Source of the DNA: an uncultured Bacteroidota bacterium
Lineage (GTDB): Bacteria > Bacteroidota > Bacteroidia > Flavobacteriales > Flavobacteriaceae
Assembly (NCBI GenBank): GCA_902590705.1
Contig: CACIXU010000011.1
Coordinates: 1-50,213 of the forward strand
DNA: 50,213 nt
Direction: 5' to 3'
How positions within the stretch are numbered: the first letter of the stretch is position 1; every line of letters starts with the position of its first letter. Positions 35,902-43,142 of this stretch are shown one piece after another. Below the pieces are notes generated by a model. The model had not been told where the DNA came from. It did not search any database and saw only the letters and a program-made list of their open reading frames with translations. Made by a program: the position numbers and the translations under genes.

Positions 35902-36258
35902 ATGAATTTTTTTCTTCATTTGAGTACTTGCAGTAGTTGTAAGCGTATAATTAAAGAGTTGAATCTCCCCAATAACGTTGATATTATTGACGTTAAAAAT
36001 TTTCCAATTACGTTGACTCAAATAGAGAAGCTAAAAACAAAAAAAGGAAGCTATAAATCTCTAATAAACAATAGAGCACAACTTTTTAAGCAACTTAACA
36101 TTGATTCTAAAAAACTAACTGAGGAAAAAGCAAAACAATTGCTAAATGACCACTATACTTTTTTAAAGCGACCTGTTCTTTTTTACAAGGGAAAAGTATT
36201 TGTGGGTAACCGCAGGGAAGAGATTGAATCAGCGAAAAAATGGATAAATGAACAATAG
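35902..36258 (+). CDS. ArsC/Spx-family thioredoxin-fold protein
   Basis: A 118-residue ArsC-like protein. The N-terminal loop HLSTCSSCKRII carries the redox cysteines C10 and C13, and the second family motif TFLKRPVLFY occurs near residue 90, with KGKVFVGNRREE after it. Members include arsenate reductases and the Spx regulators, as well as many uncharacterised reductases; the C-x-x-C arrangement favours a redox protein over classical ArsC. No arsenic genes are near. The end overlaps the EamA transporter gene by 11 bp, so they are cotranscribed. Confidence 0.85.
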   Translation: MNFFLHLSTCSSCKRIIKELNLPNNVDIIDVKNFPITLTQIEKLKTKKGSYKSLINNRAQLFKQLNIDSKKLTEEKAKQLLNDHYTFLKRPVLFYKGKVFVGNRREEIESAKKWINEQ

Positions 36259-37138
36259 GCTACTTGCCCTTTTATCTGCAGGTTGTGCTACTTTGATTTA
36301 CGGATTAAACCATACAATTGCAAAAGAGGTAATGCCGGATCATGTTGGGGCATTTGGTTTCATCTTCATTAGAACTGCAGGCGCTACAATACTTTTTTGG
36401 TTTGCAAGTTTATTTGTTACCTTCGAAAAAATTGATAAAAAAGACTATTTAAAATTCTTTATTACTGCACTTCTAGGAATGTGCTTGAATATGCTTTCTT
36501 TTTTTAAGGGCCTGGAACTTTCAACACCAGTAAATAGCGGAATATTTGCTACAACAAATCCAATAATTATTTTATGTCTGTCATATTTTTTTCTTCAGGA
36601 AAAAATTGGATTTAAAAAATTTATTGGAATAACACTAGGTTTTATTGGGGCTTTAATTTTGGTTATCCAAGGAACTGAAAACTCATTAAGAGCGCCTAAT
36701 GTCCCTCTAGGTAATTTTCTGTTTTTACTTAACTCAATATTCTTTTCAAGTTTTATTATTATGGTTAAACCACTTACTCAAAAGTATAATACAATAACAA
36801 TAATGAAATGGTTATTTCTTATAGGTTTTTTTATGAATTTACCCGTAACAAGCAAAGAATTTAGTGAAATTAATTGGATTAATATGCCATTTGACGCGAT
36901 TTGGAGAATCATATTTGTTGTGTTGGGTACTACATTTTTAACCTATATATTAAATCTTTTTGCTTTAAAAAAACTTCAGGCTTCAACTGTTGGTGCTTTT
37001 GCTTATGCGCAACCCATAATAGCAATTTCCTTTGCCATTATTACTGGAAATGATTATATAAGTTTTGGAAGAGGCCTTGCATGTTTAACCATAATAGTTG
37101 GGGTTTATCTTGTTTCACAAAAACCAAATTACAATTAA
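36248..37138 (+). CDS. EamA-family (DMT) transporter
   Basis: A 296-residue inner-membrane protein with ten predicted helices in two repeats, the drug/metabolite transporter layout. Repeat 1 starts SAGCATLIYGLNHTIAKE and contains the segment FATTNPIIILCLSYFFLQEK; repeat 2 starts LGNFLFLLNSIFFSSFIIMV and contains VGAFAYAQPIIAISFAIITG. These paired P-x-I/x-E motifs are typical of EamA. The substrate is unknown. It follows the ArsC-like gene with an 11-bp overlap; the azurin gene 49 bp on has its own -7 element. Confidence 0.9.
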   Translation: MNNRLLALLSAGCATLIYGLNHTIAKEVMPDHVGAFGFIFIRTAGATILFWFASLFVTFEKIDKKDYLKFFITALLGMCLNMLSFFKGLELSTPVNSGIFATTNPIIILCLSYFFLQEKIGFKKFIGITLGFIGALILVIQGTENSLRAPNVPLGNFLFLLNSIFFSSFIIMVKPLTQKYNTITIMKWLFLIGFFMNLPVTSKEFSEINWINMPFDAIWRIIFVVLGTTFLTYILNLFALKKLQASTVGAFAYAQPIIAISFAIITGNDYISFGRGLACLTIIVGVYLVSQKPNYN

Positions 37139-37187: not shown

Positions 37188-37697
37188 ATGAAAAACTTAA
37201 TTTTATTTACTTTCTCAATTCTTTTAATTATAAGTTGTGGCAGCGATGAAAAGAAAGAAAAAAAAGAAAAATTTAAGTATGAAAGGACAAAAGAAGTCTC
37301 AGAGAAAATTCCAATAAATAATCCTAATGATTTCAGGGTAATTCTTAATTCTTTTGATAACATGATTTACGATAAAAATAAAATCGAGGTTAATTCAGGT
37401 AAAAATATAATATTGACTCTAAATCATAAGGGCAAGGTATCTAAAGAATTCATGGGTCACAATTTTGTGTTGCTAAAAAAAGGGGTTAATGTCGATGAAT
37501 ACGCAAAAAAAGCAGTTTTAGCTAAATCAAACGATTATATTCCAGACTCTGATGAAGCTATCGCTTATACTAAGATGCTAGGAGGGGGGGAATCAACAAC
37601 TATAAGCTTTTTAGCTCCCGAGGCTGGTATCTACACTTATATTTGTTCTTTTCCTGGTCATTACATGATGATGAGGGGAGAATTAATAGTGAAATAA
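37188..37697 (+). CDS. azurin-like cupredoxin lipoprotein
   Basis: A 169-residue exported blue-copper protein. The signal peptide ends in a lipobox (LLIISC, C17) followed by GSDEKKEKKEK, an acidic-then-basic spacer that may direct it to the outer membrane surface. The mature domain begins IPINNPNDFRVILNSFDNMI; the copper ligands are the histidine in FMGHNFVLL and C, H and M in YICSFPGHYMMMRG. That spacing is the azurin pattern. Azurins carry single electrons between periplasmic redox partners. Its stop lies 3 nt from the stop of the convergent GMC dehydrogenase small subunit, suggesting but not proving a link. Confidence 0.92.
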   Translation: MKNLILFTFSILLIISCGSDEKKEKKEKFKYERTKEVSEKIPINNPNDFRVILNSFDNMIYDKNKIEVNSGKNIILTLNHKGKVSKEFMGHNFVLLKKGVNVDEYAKKAVLAKSNDYIPDSDEAIAYTKMLGGGESTTISFLAPEAGIYTYICSFPGHYMMMRGELIVK

Positions 37698-37700
37698 ATT

Positions 37701-38348
37701 TTATAAAGACCAAATCTTTCCTCCAGTAGTTTCCATTAGGTCCACGCATCCTCTTTGTTCACCAGGAATGGGAGCATATGCCAATACGTTTTCCCCTATG
37801 TACTCATTAGTCCTAAATGCAGTTATAGACAAAGAGCGTAATTGGTTTGCAAAATCATAAGCTAATGCCTCACTAGGTAATTTAGGAGAGTTACTTTTAT
37901 TTTTTAAAGCTTTTTGATAGTCAGAATACTCTTTTTTCCAAGAATTTTTTTTCTTAACGTCTGCTTTAAGGTATTTAGCTAATTGAAAATCTAAATCTTC
38001 ATTAGTCAATTTATCAGCTTTACTTTTCGCAGTATCAAAAAGAGCAACATCTATAAAGCTATCTAATCCTTTTGATATCTTTTTTTGGCTTTCCTCAGAA
38101 TAAATTGTGTAAATATAACCATCCAAAAATTCAGGTAATTTAAGATTGATAGCACCTGGAATTTCAGTCTCAGGAAGTATTAGCTCCATTAATTGAGATA
38201 CAATAGCAAACTGTTTCTTATTGAAGTACTCAAGAACAAAGTTAGAAGAGTTGTTTTGACAGCTATGAAAAAGTCCAACGACTGCTGGAGTCAAAGTGAT
38301 AGCTCCTGAGCCATATCCAATTGTTTTTAATGCTTTTCTTCTATCCAT
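37701..38348 (-). CDS. gluconate 2-dehydrogenase subunit 3-family protein
   Basis: A 215-residue small subunit of a GMC dehydrogenase. It starts with a twin-arginine signal (MDRRKALKTIGYGSGAITLT), so it should be exported folded, carrying the catalytic subunit with it in the usual hitch-hiker way. Blocks QFAIVSQLMELILPETEIPG and KLPEFLDGYIYTIYSE are the subunit 3 signature. The C-terminus ends GEQRGCVDLMETTGGKIWSL. It follows the GMC gene after 15 bp. A cysteine at residue 30 is not preceded by a canonical lipobox. In characterised glucose or glucoside dehydrogenases this subunit is a chaperone/export partner. Confidence 0.9.
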   Translation of the reverse strand: MDRRKALKTIGYGSGAITLTPAVVGLFHSCQNNSSNFVLEYFNKKQFAIVSQLMELILPETEIPGAINLKLPEFLDGYIYTIYSEESQKKISKGLDSFIDVALFDTAKSKADKLTNEDLDFQLAKYLKADVKKKNSWKKEYSDYQKALKNKSNSPKLPSEALAYDFANQLRSLSITAFRTNEYIGENVLAYAPIPGEQRGCVDLMETTGGKIWSL

Positions 38349-38363
38349 TATTAATAATTTAAA

Positions 38364-40058
38364 TTAAAGGTTCATCTTTTTTAATTCTTTTACTGCATGA
38401 TTTACAGCTCTTGCTGTAATTGCCATATAAGTTAGCGAAGGGTTAACATTACCCGAAGAGGTCATGCAGGATCCATCTGTAACAAAAACATTTTTCACAG
38501 AATGAATCTGATTAAACTTGTTTAAAACAGAAGTTTCTTTATCACGTCCCATTCTTGCAGTTCCCATTTCATGTATTCCAGCACCATAATAATATCCATT
38601 ATCACGAGTCTTAACATTTTTAAAGCCTGCCGATTCAAGCATTTCTCCAATCTGTTGTAGTAAGTGCTTTCTCATTGAGTATTCGTTTTCTTTTATCTCA
38701 GCATCAAATGTAACCGTGGGTAGTCCCCACTTATCTTTTTTATCATAATCAAGATACATCTTGTTATCATGATAAGGTAATATTTCCCCAAAACCGCCAA
38801 GGTTTATTTTCCATGGTCCAGGAGTCTGAATTGCTTTTTTAAATTTAGATCCATATGCTTCATCGGAACCATTACCTTTATTTTGGCCTCTTTTCGCACT
38901 TCCCTGAAAGCCATATCCTCTTACAAAATCCTTGACATTAGTTGAACCACCAATATTTACAAATCTTGGAATGTAAATTCCCCCTGGTCTTCTTCCAGTG
39001 TAATAAGAATCCTCGAAACCCTCAATATCAGCACTAGCACCTAGTCTAAGATGATGATCCATCAAATTATGTCCTAGTTCTCCTGAATCATTACCAAGTC
39101 CATTAGGGAAACGATCCGATACTGATTGTAATAGAATTGAGGTAGAAGCAATAGTTGAAGCACATAAAAAGATAATTTTAGCTTTGTACTCTGTTACTTC
39201 ATTTGTCTCTGAATCAATTACTCGAACTCCACTTGCCCTATTATTTTTTTCATCATAAATGATTTGAGTAACAATTGAATTCGGTCTAAGTGTCATATTT
39301 CCAGTAGCATCTGCAGCAGGTAAGGTAGATGAGTTACTACTAAAATATGCACCATAAGGACAACCTCTTCTACATCGATTCCTGTATTGACATGTAACAC
39401 GGCCTAGTCCGGGTTTAGTTCCCTCAGTAATATGAGCAACCCTAGCATTTGTTATAAGGCGGTCATCGTATTTATTTGCTATTTCATTTTTAAATTTTTC
39501 TTCAGCACATGTTAATTCCATAGGTTTTAAAAACTCACTGTCTGGGAGTTGAGGCAACCCTAACTTTTCTCCAGAAACACCGATATATTTTTCAACATAA
39601 CTATACCAAGGTGCTAAGTCTTTATATCTTATTGGCCAATCAATGGCAATACCCTCTTTAGCATTAGCCTCAAAATCAAATTCGCTCAATCTGTAAACTT
39701 GCCTTGCCCACATTAAAGATTTACCACCAACGTGATATCCCCGAACCCAATCGAAAGGCTTATCCTCATTGTAAGGATGTTCATCATCATCTACAAAAAA
39801 ATGAGAGGTTGATTCATGAACTGCATACCTGGTCGATCTGATTTGCTTGTATTGTTTCTTTTCAATTTCATGGGTAGTTTTATCCCCACCTTTGAAGTCC
39901 CAAGGGTCCATATTTGCCGTGTGATAATCAACTATGTGCCTGATCATTCTTCCTCTTTCGAGAACAAGTGTTTTCAATCCCGCTTCACACAACTCTTTGG
40001 CAGCCCATCCTCCACTTATCCCTGTTCCTATTACAATAGCATCAAATTCTTGATTCAT
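38364..40058 (-). CDS. GMC-family FAD sugar dehydrogenase, large subunit
   Basis: A 564-residue flavoprotein. The FAD motif is IVIGTGISGGWAAKELCEAG, and the active-site histidine and asparagine lie in GIHEMGTARMG and NVNPSLTYMAITARA, the GMC pair. Cysteines C223, C229 and C233 form C-X5-C-X3-C (CQYRNRCRRGC), the spacing described for the 3Fe-4S cluster of the FAD glucose dehydrogenase of Burkholderia cepacia, so direct electron export to a periplasmic acceptor is likely. With the subunit 3 partner, export is by the Tat pathway. Substrate is probably a sugar or glycoside oxidised at C3, inferred from the divergent Gfo/Idh-TIM-DUF1080 operon. No cytochrome c subunit is encoded nearby. Perfect -7 element upstream. 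Confidence 0.9.
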   Translation of the reverse strand: MNQEFDAIVIGTGISGGWAAKELCEAGLKTLVLERGRMIRHIVDYHTANMDPWDFKGGDKTTHEIEKKQYKQIRSTRYAVHESTSHFFVDDDEHPYNEDKPFDWVRGYHVGGKSLMWARQVYRLSEFDFEANAKEGIAIDWPIRYKDLAPWYSYVEKYIGVSGEKLGLPQLPDSEFLKPMELTCAEEKFKNEIANKYDDRLITNARVAHITEGTKPGLGRVTCQYRNRCRRGCPYGAYFSSNSSTLPAADATGNMTLRPNSIVTQIIYDEKNNRASGVRVIDSETNEVTEYKAKIIFLCASTIASTSILLQSVSDRFPNGLGNDSGELGHNLMDHHLRLGASADIEGFEDSYYTGRRPGGIYIPRFVNIGGSTNVKDFVRGYGFQGSAKRGQNKGNGSDEAYGSKFKKAIQTPGPWKINLGGFGEILPYHDNKMYLDYDKKDKWGLPTVTFDAEIKENEYSMRKHLLQQIGEMLESAGFKNVKTRDNGYYYGAGIHEMGTARMGRDKETSVLNKFNQIHSVKNVFVTDGSCMTSSGNVNPSLTYMAITARAVNHAVKELKKMNL

Positions 40059-40090
40059 GAATTATAAAATTGTTAAGTTTTTTATGTTGT

Positions 40091-40098
40091 CAAAAATA
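40091..40098 (-). promoter_or_regulatory. -7 element of the GMC operon (TATTTTTG)
   Basis: On the minus strand TATTTTTG matches TAnnTTTG exactly, 32 nt before the GMC start codon. The 158-bp divergent gap also serves the plus-strand sugar operon. Confidence 0.5.
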
Positions 40099-40182
40099 AG
40101 GACTTATAAAATATTAAAGCCCTTAATTATGGAAAAAAATAATTATGAATTAATATCGATTTTAGTTTTAATAAATTAATCC

Positions 40183-40190
40183 TATTTTTA
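40183..40190 (+). promoter_or_regulatory. near -7 element of the Gfo/Idh-TIM-DUF1080 operon
   Basis: TATTTTTA differs from TAnnTTTG only at the last base and lies 26 nt before the ATG at 40217. It is the best candidate promoter on this side of the divergent gap. Confidence 0.3.
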
Positions 40191-40216
40191 CGATAATCAG
40201 ATTTAAAATAAAAAAA

Positions 40217-41356
40217 ATGAGTAAAATACGTTTAGGTGTATTAGGCGGAGGCGGTGACTCACTAATTGGAGTTCTTCACCGAGTTGCGTCTTTTATGTAT
40301 GATCGCTACGAAATTGTAGGTGGCGTTTTTAATCCGAATTATGATGAAAATATAAAGTTTGCAAAGCAAATTGGAATTAGTACTGAGAGAGTTTACGAGA
40401 ACTTTGATAAATTTATTAATGAAGAGGCTGCAAAACCCGAATCCGAAAGAATGGAAGCTGTTTCGGTTTTAACCCCAAATTTCTTGCATTTTCCTATGGC
40501 TAAAAAACTTTTGGAAAATGGTTTTAACGTTATCTGTGAAAAACCACTAACGACTTCACTTGAAGAAGCGAAAGAATTAGAGGCTTTACAGAAAAAAAAT
40601 AATACAATTTTTGCTGTTACATACACATATACTGGTTATCCTATGGTCCGCGAAATGAAAAATATGATCGCAAATGGACTAATTGGAGAAATTCATAAAG
40701 TGGATTTACAATATTATCAAGGATGGATTAACCCTGTAATTCATGACAAAGAAAAAAGAAGTAAAGTTTGGCGATTGGATCCAAAAAAGGCTGGAATTAG
40801 TTCATGTATTGGTGATATAGGAACTCATATTTTTAATATGGTTGAATATGTGACAGGAATGGAAGTCAAAGAATTACTTTCTGATTTAAATACATTGTAT
40901 GATGACAACCCGCTTGATATAGATGGTTCCATCTTAATTCGTATGTCCAATAAAGTTAAAGGATTGCTTCGTGCAAGCCAGATTGCAACTGGTGACGAGA
41001 ACAATATTACTGTAGCCATATACGGAAGAAAAGGAGCTTTAAAATGGGAACAGGAAAACCCTAACTATTTATATTTCTTAAAAGATGATGAACCCAGAAG
41101 ACTAATCAAACCTGGAAATGTATACAATACTGATGTATCACTGGACGGAACTAAACTTCCAGCAGGTCACCCAGAGGGAATTTTTGATGCCATGGGGAAT
41201 ATTTACAAAGGGGTTGCTAAAGCATTAAGAGGTGAAAAATCCTTCAACGGAGAATTTCCAACCATATATGAGGGTGTTAGAGGAATGATGTTTATAGAAA
41301 AAGTAGTTGAATCCAATAAAAAAGGTAATATATGGATAAGCATGGAAAATCAATGA
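40217..41356 (+). CDS. Gfo/Idh/MocA-family oxidoreductase
   Basis: A 379-residue NAD(P)-dependent sugar oxidoreductase. The N-terminal Rossmann motif is RLGVLGGGGDSLIGVLH, and the catalytic lysine sits in the family signature VICEKPLTTSLEEAKELE near residue 105. The C-terminal half has the expected DIGTHIFNMVEYVTG segment. Members oxidise, reduce or hydrate sugars and cyclitols. With the downstream TIM-barrel and DUF1080 genes and the divergent GMC dehydrogenase, a role in 3-keto-sugar turnover is inferred. The stop overlaps the next ATG by 4 bp (ATGA). No signal peptide. Confidence 0.92.
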   Translation: MSKIRLGVLGGGGDSLIGVLHRVASFMYDRYEIVGGVFNPNYDENIKFAKQIGISTERVYENFDKFINEEAAKPESERMEAVSVLTPNFLHFPMAKKLLENGFNVICEKPLTTSLEEAKELEALQKKNNTIFAVTYTYTGYPMVREMKNMIANGLIGEIHKVDLQYYQGWINPVIHDKEKRSKVWRLDPKKAGISSCIGDIGTHIFNMVEYVTGMEVKELLSDLNTLYDDNPLDIDGSILIRMSNKVKGLLRASQIATGDENNITVAIYGRKGALKWEQENPNYLYFLKDDEPRRLIKPGNVYNTDVSLDGTKLPAGHPEGIFDAMGNIYKGVAKALRGEKSFNGEFPTIYEGVRGMMFIEKVVESNKKGNIWISMENQ

Positions 41357-42405
41357 AAACAATAAAAGGTCCTGCCGTATTTTTAGCTCAATTTGTAGAT
41401 AAGAAAGCCCCCTTCAATTCTCTAGATGGAATGTGTAAATGGGCAGCGGATTTAGGATACAAGGGAATTCAAATACCTACTTGGGAAAACTTTTTAATAG
41501 ATCTAGACAAAGCAGCTGACAGTCAAACTTATTGCGACGAGTTAAAAGGGAAAATAAATTCATATGGTTTAGAGATTACAGAACTGTCAACCCACCTACA
41601 GGGGCAATTGGTTGCAGTACATCCCGCTTATGATTTGATGTTTGATAATTTCGCTCCAGATGCCTACAAAAACAACCCAAAAGCCAGAACTGAATGGGCG
41701 GTTGAAACAATGAACAAAGCAGCAATTGCAAGTGGTCGACTTGGTTTGAATGCTCATGCAACTTTTTCTGGAGCATTACTTTGGCACACATGGCACCCCT
41801 GGCCTCAGAGACCAGATGGATTAGTTGAGATGGGTTTTAAAGAATTGGCTAAAAGATGGTTGCCAATACTTAACACCTTTGATGAACATGGTGTTGATGT
41901 CTGTTATGAAATTCATCCAGGTGAAGACCTCCATGATGGGGTTACTTTTGAACGTTTCTTGAAAGAGACCGGTAATCATAAAAGGGCAAATATACTTTAT
42001 GATCCTAGTCACTTTGTATTACAACAATTAGACTACCTAGATTATATTGATCATTATCACAGCTTTATCAAATCCTTCCACGTTAAAGATTCTGAATTTA
42101 ATCCTACTGGAAAAAAAGGAGCTTTTGGTGGATATGGTGACTGGATAGACAGAGCTGGAAGGTATCGCTCATTAGGCGATGGACAAATCGATTTTAAGAG
42201 TATATTTACGAAACTAACTGAATACGGCTGTGATGTGTGGGCAGTAATGGAATGGGAATGTTGCATTAAGAGTCCTGAACAAGGTGCTCGTGAAGGTGCT
42301 CCTTTTATCCAATCTCACATAATTGAAGCCACTCAAAAAACTTTTGATGATTTTGCTGGATCTGAAATTGATGAAAATCACTTAAAAAAGATATTAAACC
42401 TTTAA
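41353..42405 (+). CDS. TIM-barrel sugar isomerase/epimerase
   Basis: A 350-residue member of the AP endonuclease 2-like TIM-barrel family. Metal-site residues are visible in CYEIHPGEDLHDG, YDPSHFVLQQLDY, FHVKDSEFN and VMEWECCIKS. The start is ATG 41353 (MKTIKGPAVFLAQF), overlapping the previous stop by 4 bp; an earlier in-frame ATG at 41332 would add seven residues inside the preceding gene. Family members interconvert keto and aldo sugars or act on inositol derivatives. Such genes often accompany Gfo/Idh/MocA oxidoreductases in 3-keto-sugar and inositol pathways. The DUF1080 gene follows after 8 bp. Confidence 0.9.
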   Translation: MKTIKGPAVFLAQFVDKKAPFNSLDGMCKWAADLGYKGIQIPTWENFLIDLDKAADSQTYCDELKGKINSYGLEITELSTHLQGQLVAVHPAYDLMFDNFAPDAYKNNPKARTEWAVETMNKAAIASGRLGLNAHATFSGALLWHTWHPWPQRPDGLVEMGFKELAKRWLPILNTFDEHGVDVCYEIHPGEDLHDGVTFERFLKETGNHKRANILYDPSHFVLQQLDYLDYIDHYHSFIKSFHVKDSEFNPTGKKGAFGGYGDWIDRAGRYRSLGDGQIDFKSIFTKLTEYGCDVWAVMEWECCIKSPEQGAREGAPFIQSHIIEATQKTFDDFAGSEIDENHLKKILNL

Positions 42406-42413
42406 AACTTATC

Positions 42414-43142
42414 ATGAAAAAAATTCTGATTACAATCCTTACATTACTTACTATTTCTTGCAATGAAACACCTAAGAAAAAAGGTGATCAAACTGAAAAA
42501 ACCTCACAAAAAGAATGGGTAACACTTTTTGACGGGAAGTCATTTGATGGGTGGCATCAATTTAATGAAACCAAAATGAGTAGTGCATGGTATATAGTAG
42601 ATGACGCAATGGTTTTCGATCCAAGTAAACAAATGGACAAAAAACAAAATAATGATCTTGTAACAGACATGGAGTATACTAATTTTGAGCTTTCTTTAGA
42701 ATGGAATATAACTAAGGGTGGAAATAGTGGAATTTTTTGGGGAGTAAAAGAAGGAGAGAAATATAGAAAACCTTATACTACAGGACCTGAAATTCAAGTT
42801 TTAGATAATGAAAGACACCCAGATGCCCTAGCCAACCCAAAATTTCATCAAGCGGGTGCACTTTATGATATGGTTCAACCTACCCAAGATGTATGCAAGC
42901 CTGCTGGTGAGTGGAACCATGTTTTATTAAGTATTGACTATAAAAGTAATAAGGGAAGTGTTGCTCTTAATGGGGTTGAAATTGTTACCTTCCCCGTATC
43001 TGGAGAAAAGTGGGATGAACTTGTCGCCAACTCTAAATTTTCAGACTGGGATCACTTTGCTAAATTTAAAACGGGGAAAATTGGATTACAAGATCACGGA
43101 GATATGGTCTCCTACCGCAATATTAAAATTAGGGAACTATAA
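42414..43142 (+). CDS. DUF1080 (3-keto-disaccharide hydrolase family) lipoprotein
   Basis: A 242-residue lipoprotein with signal peptide MKKILITILTLLTISC (lipobox cysteine 16) and a lysine-rich spacer. The DUF1080 domain starts WVTLFDGKSFDGWHQF and includes GNSGIFWGVKEG, GPEIQVLDNERHPD, GEWNHVLLSIDYKSNKG and a final KIGLQDHGDMVSYRNIKI. The fold is a concanavalin-like beta sandwich. Some DUF1080 proteins cleave 3-keto-glycosides, which fits the sugar dehydrogenases beside it. It ends the Gfo/Idh-TIM-DUF1080 operon, 6 bp before yicC. Cell-envelope location means the cleavage would happen in the periplasm or at the surface. Confidence 0.93.
   Translation: MKKILITILTLLTISCNETPKKKGDQTEKTSQKEWVTLFDGKSFDGWHQFNETKMSSAWYIVDDAMVFDPSKQMDKKQNNDLVTDMEYTNFELSLEWNITKGGNSGIFWGVKEGEKYRKPYTTGPEIQVLDNERHPDALANPKFHQAGALYDMVQPTQDVCKPAGEWNHVLLSIDYKSNKGSVALNGVEIVTFPVSGEKWDELVANSKFSDWDHFAKFKTGKIGLQDHGDMVSYRNIKIREL

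Follow-up and report, generated by a model that had tools for sequence, protein, structure and literature searches.

A lipid-anchored azurin in the slot of cytochrome c: probable electron acceptor of a glycoside 3-dehydrogenase module in Flavobacteriaceae

Which carrier takes the electrons of a periplasmic sugar-oxidising enzyme when no cytochrome c gene lies beside it? This question was raised by a locus on a 50,213-nucleotide stretch of DNA (contig CACIXU010000011.1 of assembly GCA_902590705.1, hereafter the window), which is contig 11 of the 1.93-Mb, 83%-complete genome (G000) of an uncultured member of the Flavobacteriaceae. The locus encodes a GMC-family flavin adenine dinucleotide (FAD) dehydrogenase and its small subunit, an azurin-like lipoprotein and three further proteins of a putative 3-keto-sugar module (Table 1). 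According to published work, a mono-haem cytochrome c (CYTc) takes the electrons of an FAD glucoside 3-dehydrogenase (PMC9915066), and a quinohaem alcohol dehydrogenase has azurin as its natural acceptor (PMC8348568). We conclude, with a probability of roughly two in three, that the window carries a glycoside 3-dehydrogenase module in which a lipid-anchored azurin has taken the place of the mono-haem cytochrome c that usually serves as acceptor, the two proteins being alternative carriers for one slot.

The evidence for this reading came above all from the genus of the window genome, which, judging from isolate names, is apparently marine. We compared 20 loci (L007-L026); with G004 and G007 added, the genus genomes numbered 22. 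The slot beside the small-subunit gene was occupied by an azurin gene only at 10 of the 20 loci, by an azurin gene and the relic of a cytochrome c gene at one locus, and by a cytochrome c gene at nine. The cytochrome c of this slot is a mono-haem lipoprotein of about 159 residues, and its gene is convergent with that of the small subunit, as the azurin gene is. No full-length homologue of the slot cytochrome c was found in the 11 azurin-type genomes (E value 1e-6), and no azurin was found in the nine cytochrome-type genomes or in G004, in which the locus is split by contig ends; neither carrier was seen in G007, which is 65% complete. In G012 (L017), an intact azurin gene adjoins the cytochrome c relic, which has four in-frame stops and the motif CTTCQ instead of CxxCH. 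The types of GMC and carrier were consistent at 20 of 20 loci, with no mixed combination. Two similar slot cytochrome c genes were also seen at contig ends in G004 (C29 and C43; L272 and L273), where they may represent a repeat at which the assembly was interrupted.

Comparison of 80 loci with a relative of the GMC gene, counted by eye and including seven of the genus genomes again, gave 21 loci with azurin only, three with both carriers (one of them broken), nine with cytochrome c only and 47 with neither in the fetched flank. The carrier gene was convergent with the GMC gene in 24 of 24 azurin cases and in 11 of 12 cytochrome c cases, the sole co-directional cytochrome c gene being that of L162 (10344-10844). 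Azurin and cytochrome c genes stand in tandem, both frames open, at L168 and L170, which belong to other groups. At L154 (9702-11174), an EamA gene directly follows the small-subunit gene, with no carrier gene between them.

We counted the changes of carrier type on phylogenetic trees. The type changed once on the GMC tree, four times on the tree of the left flank and five times on that of the right flank (20 genomes each), and twice on the tree of the distant marker ActB (16 genomes, because in G002, G003, G009 and G013 ActB was absent or of insufficient length). The carrier type thus follows the GMC gene. A single azurin clade was rejected for ActB (p 2e-19), for the left flank (p 6e-70) and for the right flank (p 9e-104). 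The independent swap events behind these counts are few, which limits the evidence from the trees.

The DNA identities of G002, an azurin-type genome, pointed to recombination at the slot. Its flanks were 86-93% identical to those of the cytochrome-type genome G001 (87-93% for DUF1080, TIM, Gfo, EamA, metB, lpxH and hflX), while its GMC and small-subunit genes were 86-90% identical to those of G000, G010, G014 and G020; the values for GMC and small subunit were 90% and 89%, respectively, against G010 but 68% and 65%, respectively, against G001. The 147 aligned bases upstream of the G002 azurin gene and its first 60 bases were 84% and 88% identical, respectively, to the cytochrome c gene of G001, as compared with 58% and 63% for the azurin gene of G010. 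In the next 60 bases the identity was 90% to G010 and 61% to G001, which places the breakpoint inside the carrier leader. The G002 genome and others are metagenome bins, so that a chimeric G002 contig is possible, though G000 shows a like tract: compared with the azurin-type genomes G010 and G014, its identity was 57-71% up to the middle of the azurin gene (57-70% to G010), about 80-93% from there to the start of the GMC gene and 72-82% in the Gfo gene. On these identities, the segment from the second half of the azurin gene through the GMC gene is an allele exchange tract (Table 1).

Many azurins and cytochromes c resemble each other in the lipoprotein signal and in the stretch that follows it. 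A search with the cytochrome c matched the azurin leaders of G002 (69% identity, E value 6e-10), G020 (54%, 4e-7) and G010 (56%, 7e-7) over about 39 residues, and the reverse search with azurin matched the cytochrome c leader of G005 (E value 4e-5).

A survey of the family was made on an evenly drawn sample of 299 Flavobacteriaceae genomes, with E-value cut-offs of 1e-20 for azurin, 1e-170 for GMC and 1e-24 for cytochrome c; these were found in 102, 161 and 194 genomes, respectively. Azurin and GMC were both present in 76 genomes, azurin only in 26, GMC only in 85 and neither in 112 (odds ratio 3.9). At least one carrier was present in 153 of the 161 genomes with GMC and in 85 of the 138 without it (odds ratio 11.9, p 3e-13), these association statistics taking no account of kinship, completeness or genome size. 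The joins for GMC and cytochrome c drew on 150 listed matches each. Among the matches listed, 49 of the 109 azurin genes of the 102 genomes lay at most 12 kb from a GMC gene, and all 49 were convergent with it; this linkage was seen, among the matches listed, in 48 of 63 genomes with both genes, the other 13 of the 76 such genomes having no listed GMC coordinate. The conservation of the azurin-GMC pairing in relatives, on which the first-pass annotation had made its case depend, was therefore borne out at 11 of the 20 genus loci and in these 48 family genomes, with a carrier swap at the other nine genus loci.

The pair recurs in two genomic places. In context A, that of the window, the order is hflX-lpxH-metB-arsC-EamA-carrier, facing small subunit-GMC, with DUF1080-yicC-gmk-nadD further on (names partly assigned by reading the sequences). 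In context B, the order ilvD-ilvB-ilvN-ilvC-ilvA-aldehyde dehydrogenase-azurin faces DUF1080-small subunit-GMC (L249, L251, L253 and L230), some loci having no aldehyde dehydrogenase gene.

The GMC protein itself matched the structures of fructose dehydrogenase (8k6k, E value 1e-36) and FAD-GDH (6a2u, E value 2e-32). The motif C-x5-C-x3-C was present in 63 of the 64 GMC proteins chosen for the tree, that of the window included and L016 being the exception. The large subunit also has the GMC His/Asn region. The spacing of the cysteine motif is that of the 3Fe-4S ligands of Burkholderia BcGDH (Cys212, Cys218 and Cys222), whose cluster reportedly receives the electrons of FAD and hands them on to the cytochrome c subunit (PMC6719666). 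The small subunit matched PF13618 (63.6 bits against a cut-off of 23.4), and the twin arginine R3 R4 was invariant in 32 of 32 aligned sequences. A sequence search of the small subunit against the PDB gave no significant match, and a common fold with the gamma subunit of BcGDH was rejected as well, an AlphaFold model (predicted local distance difference test score, pLDDT, 78.5) having no significant PDB match (best E value 0.61). No named, characterised GMC enzyme was found on plasmids, the 15 best of 691 matches being annotated as 'GMC family oxidoreductase' or unannotated.

The first-pass annotation had read the locus as a possible 3-keto-sugar module, and this reading is well supported by the cysteine motif together with the two downstream enzymes. 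The TIM-barrel protein matched the solved 2-hydroxy-3-keto-glucal hydratase 8ro4 over residues 8-356 of 357 (Table 1); because this match starts at residue 8, position 41353 is a likelier start than the first ATG. No paper was found in a literature search for the name of this hydratase. The DUF1080 protein matched PF06439 (165 bits against a cut-off of 26.8) and the structures 4hxc (E value 9e-36), 8rr2 (3e-33) and 8tda (3e-33); its matches include solved putative glycosyl hydrolases, 8rr2 being a 3-keto-disaccharide hydrolase domain protein. By homology, the GMC complex would oxidise glycosides at C3. Five more DUF1080 genes were seen in the small genome G000 on C16 (L002, L005, L095), C1 (L003), C2 (L004) and C8 (L006), two of them near each other and with a Gfo-type gene. 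A second GMC gene of G000, at C1:226729-228408 (L092), encodes a protein of 50% identity, with no azurin or CxxCH gene in the surrounding 19 kb.

The carrier of the window scored 97.2 bits with TIGR02695, below the curated cut-off of 105.1, and for this reason we call it azurin-like. It aligned with the structure 1cuo (Table 1). It has the patterns GHN and C-x4-H-x3-M of the type-1 copper ligands (His, Cys, His and Met), which were present in 74 of 74 azurin sequences, some genomes being represented twice, and the azurins of the genus formed one clade (support 99). Azurin-like domains were also seen within open frames of 653 to 1179 residues in G022, G023 and G032 (L062-L067).

No cytochrome c gene is linked to the locus of the window, as had been noted from the first reading of the sequence. 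In G000, PF00034 gave five hits, of which one was an ActA-like protein and two were quinoprotein-like; the others were a large lipoprotein of a different type and a cytochrome c of 133 residues, which sits in another sugar cluster. Two further CxxCH proteins (365 and 184 residues) lie near the ActA-like protein, all these names having been assigned by reading the sequences. A dedicated cytochrome c with conserved linkage elsewhere was not found in the 83%-complete G000, but sister species carry one in the slot of the azurin. The ActA-like protein (C4, L094:9421-10680) has six CxxCH motifs, the first of which, in its N-terminal cytochrome c-like part, was matched by the slot cytochrome c query; its locus resembles alternative complex III and is followed by oxidase-like genes (names again by reading). 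The quinoprotein-like dehydrogenases with CxxCH on C5 (L041) and C41 (L043), so named in the same way, could likewise use azurin. A paralogue closely related to the slot cytochrome c lies next to a nosZ-like gene, together with a fasciclin-domain gene and further nos-like genes (L268, L269, L278, L279 and L280, with Pfam run on L280 only).

Several observations weigh against the replacement of cytochrome c by azurin as the acceptor of the GMC enzyme, and many of them agree with an explanation that we consider unlikely, in which azurin and cytochrome c are general carriers between respiratory complexes and came to lie by the GMC gene through an old conserved region, the electrons of GMC passing to quinone or elsewhere. 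Carriers stay in the EamA/metB region of context A without a GMC gene beside them (cytochrome c at eight loci, L262-L267, L270 and L271; azurin at five, L238, L246, L256, L257 and L261), and azurin stays after the ilv genes of context B without GMC at twelve (L226, L232, L234, L236, L237, L239, L240, L242, L250, L252, L258 and L259), most of these loci having been picked because GMC was absent or unlinked, so that they give no rates. A carrier is likewise kept by 85 of the 138 GMC-less genomes of the family draw, and 26 of the 102 azurin genomes were without GMC at the cut-off of 1e-170, one of which, G105, has a GMC gene cut by a contig end. Among the matches listed, only 10 of 150 cytochrome c genes lay within 12 kb of GMC, all of them convergent, and cytochrome c was linked in 10 of the 78 listed genomes with both genes; family-wide, linkage to GMC is thus the rule for azurin and the exception for cytochrome c. 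In context A, the linkage may largely reflect old synteny among housekeeping genes, and the paralogue by nosZ also fits a general role. Against this explanation stand the 153 of 161 GMC genomes that have a carrier, the convergence of azurin with GMC in two different contexts and, within the genus, a carrier type that tracks GMC and not the flanking genes; moreover, a general role would be compatible with taking electrons from GMC. The persistence of carriers without GMC led us to reject a strictly dedicated subunit: azurin is probably not exclusive to the GMC enzyme, and the carrier is best regarded as a one-electron carrier of the periplasm, GMC being a main client.

It is far less probable that the carrier has no functional tie to the enzyme and was exchanged along with GMC and the small subunit through mere adjacency. 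Physical linkage suffices for co-transfer, about 0.7 kb separates carrier and GMC in the genus members of the family join, and the independent events are few (two changes on ActB). However, neither Gfo, some 0.15-0.25 kb away from GMC, nor EamA, some 0.1 kb away from the carrier, was transferred with them in G000 and G002, the cytochrome c gene decays beside azurin in G012, and mixed types are lacking at all 20 loci. Other results reduce the force of the tie between azurin and GMC. The azurin genes of G002 and G010 were 77% identical and their GMC genes 90%, and azurin and GMC were thus not always moved in one event. G016 and G012 are outside the recent tract of GMC and small subunit (GMC 83% and 71%, small subunit 65% and 63%, respectively, to G002). 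The small-subunit tree, on which G012 and G016 have long branches, showed three changes of carrier type, and a single azurin clade was rejected for the small subunit too, less strongly (p 0.004). Interface residues that differ by carrier type were too few for a convincing signature: at a threshold of 80%, three sites of GMC and one of the small subunit were consistent, with none opposite in either, and at 65% GMC had four consistent sites against one opposite. The azurin and small-subunit genes, being convergent (tail to tail), have no shared transcription, and the search for another carrier covered a genome that is only 83% complete.

The proposal that the azurin takes the electrons, made originally from position only, is supported by this comparison through the alternation in one slot, the decaying cytochrome c and the tracking of the GMC tree; its exclusivity is not. 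The observations cover gene content, motifs, alternation, the relic and the behaviour on trees, whereas all reactions and the electron step are inferred. In the pathway that we favour, the GMC protein and the Tat (twin-arginine translocation) small subunit would be exported together and would oxidise the C3 position of a glycoside in the periplasm, as homology suggests. The electrons would pass from FAD through a 3Fe-4S cluster, whose motif was observed, to azurin and from azurin to the respiratory chain. The DUF1080 lipoprotein would cleave the 3-keto-glycoside, the TIM-barrel hydratase would hydrate 2-hydroxy-3-keto-glucal and the Gfo protein would reduce the 3-keto-sugar, as their relatives suggest. 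The azurin-type GMC allele would have spread by recombination among azurin-bearing genomes, and the carrier, probably the main acceptor for GMC, would also serve other periplasmic redox enzymes.

Table 1. Features of the azurin-GMC locus, in window coordinates
Feature	Position	Strand	Evidence and remarks
EamA transporter	36248..37138	+	Conserved neighbour upstream of the carrier gene; thought to be outside the module
Azurin-like lipoprotein	37188..37697	+	Copper-bind E 7e-14; 1cuo E 3e-19; probable electron acceptor
Allele exchange tract by DNA identity (second half of azurin, small subunit, GMC)	37350..40100	.	300-base sliding windows
Tat-signal small ('hitchhiker'-type) subunit, Gluconate_2-dh3 family	37701..38348	-	E 3e-17; faces the azurin gene (convergent)
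GMC FAD dehydrogenase, large subunit	38364..40058	-	PF00732 and PF05199 above cut-off; C-x5-C-x3-C from residue 223
Gfo/Idh/MocA oxidoreductase, probable cytoplasmic 3-keto-sugar reductase (putative function)	40217..41356	+	3v5n 'Oxidoreductase' E 9e-89
TIM-barrel protein, 2-hydroxy-3-keto-glucal hydratase relative	41353..42405	+	8ro4 E 3e-163; first ATG 41332
DUF1080 (3-keto-disaccharide hydrolase domain) lipoprotein	42414..43142	+	E 3e-48; 4hxc, 8rr2, 8tda

The six genes from azurin to DUF1080 were found where the first-pass annotation had placed them, and family profile matches agreed with the families that it had named. It had also drawn attention to the 3 nt between the azurin and small-subunit genes; this gap separates two stop codons, and the convergent orientation, which had not been stressed, corrects the picture. 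No shared promoter is possible for convergent genes, and a single operon of the two was rejected. An RNA structure spanning the two stop codons was rejected as well, its fold being no better than those of shuffled sequences (z 0.66), and no tandem repeats were found. Promoter and terminator scans gave counts near background (18 against 14.1 expected and 3 against 2.2 expected, respectively). No linked sugar transporter was found in the cluster of the window, the adjoining EamA protein not being sugar-specific; a nucleoside-H+ symporter/MFS gene (c11) or an MFS gene (c23) is present in many relatives.

The closest known systems are the FAD glucoside 3-dehydrogenases of Rhizobium radiobacter and Caulobacter (LacABC), which share with the window a GMC protein, a Tat small subunit, a role in 3-keto-glycoside formation and a separate small one-electron carrier (PMC9915066, PMC9007349). 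They differ from the window in the carrier, which is here a convergently encoded azurin lipoprotein, with cytochrome c in sister species only. The LacB protein of Caulobacter is a cytochrome. Because no cytochrome c acceptor gene is linked in the window (one is linked at nine of the 20 genus loci), we set this locus apart from a plain LacABC-type complex. The Agrobacterium operon GlycDH-AtOGE-AtHYD-Gfo similarly contains GMC and Tat proteins, a TIM-barrel hydratase and a Gfo reductase (PMC10628242), whereas the window has a DUF1080 cleavage gene, an azurin carrier and lipoprotein parts. Burkholderia FAD-GDH and Gluconobacter fructose dehydrogenase have a GMC protein with the same 3Fe-4S spacing and a small hitchhiker subunit. 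However, they have a tri-haem cytochrome c subunit, of which there is none in the window, and their small subunits were not linked to that of the window by sequence and fold searches. Azurin is the physiological acceptor of two other periplasmic dehydrogenases, ADH IIB and aromatic amine dehydrogenase, which are not GMC flavoenzymes. These are pyrroloquinoline quinone (PQQ) or tryptophan tryptophylquinone (TTQ) enzymes, and the structures 2h47 and 2iaa, matched by the azurin-like protein, are those of aromatic amine dehydrogenase with azurin.

Among the matches listed from the open-access literature, none described azurin together with a glucoside dehydrogenase of the GMC family. In a survey of azurin with an operon predictor, covering 10 Bacteroidetes genomes among others, the associated genes were reportedly always different, except for one Flavobacteriaceae pair (PMC8779525). 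A convergent partner would escape such a predictor. The azurin carrier would be a new variation on glucoside 3-dehydrogenase systems, otherwise known with cytochrome c. Copper and haem carriers replace each other in the case of plastocyanin and cytochrome c6, which belong to a photosynthetic chain, whereas the carriers of the window genus share a lipoprotein leader and a locus. We suggest, only tentatively, that in marine Flavobacteriaceae the iron carrier cytochrome c and the copper carrier azurin are interchanged at a single locus, sharing a leader and accompanied by matched GMC alleles spread by recombination, as a respiratory, sugar-oxidising counterpart of that swap, possibly driven by the scarcity of iron in seawater. 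The 20 genus loci, with one locus, a different metal and one decaying cytochrome c, are a natural experiment that makes the question of the partner directly testable. Azurin in Flavobacteriaceae gains a conserved genomic partner and, if our reading is true, the use of a copper protein would extend to a periplasmic sugar-oxidising family known to work with cytochrome c.

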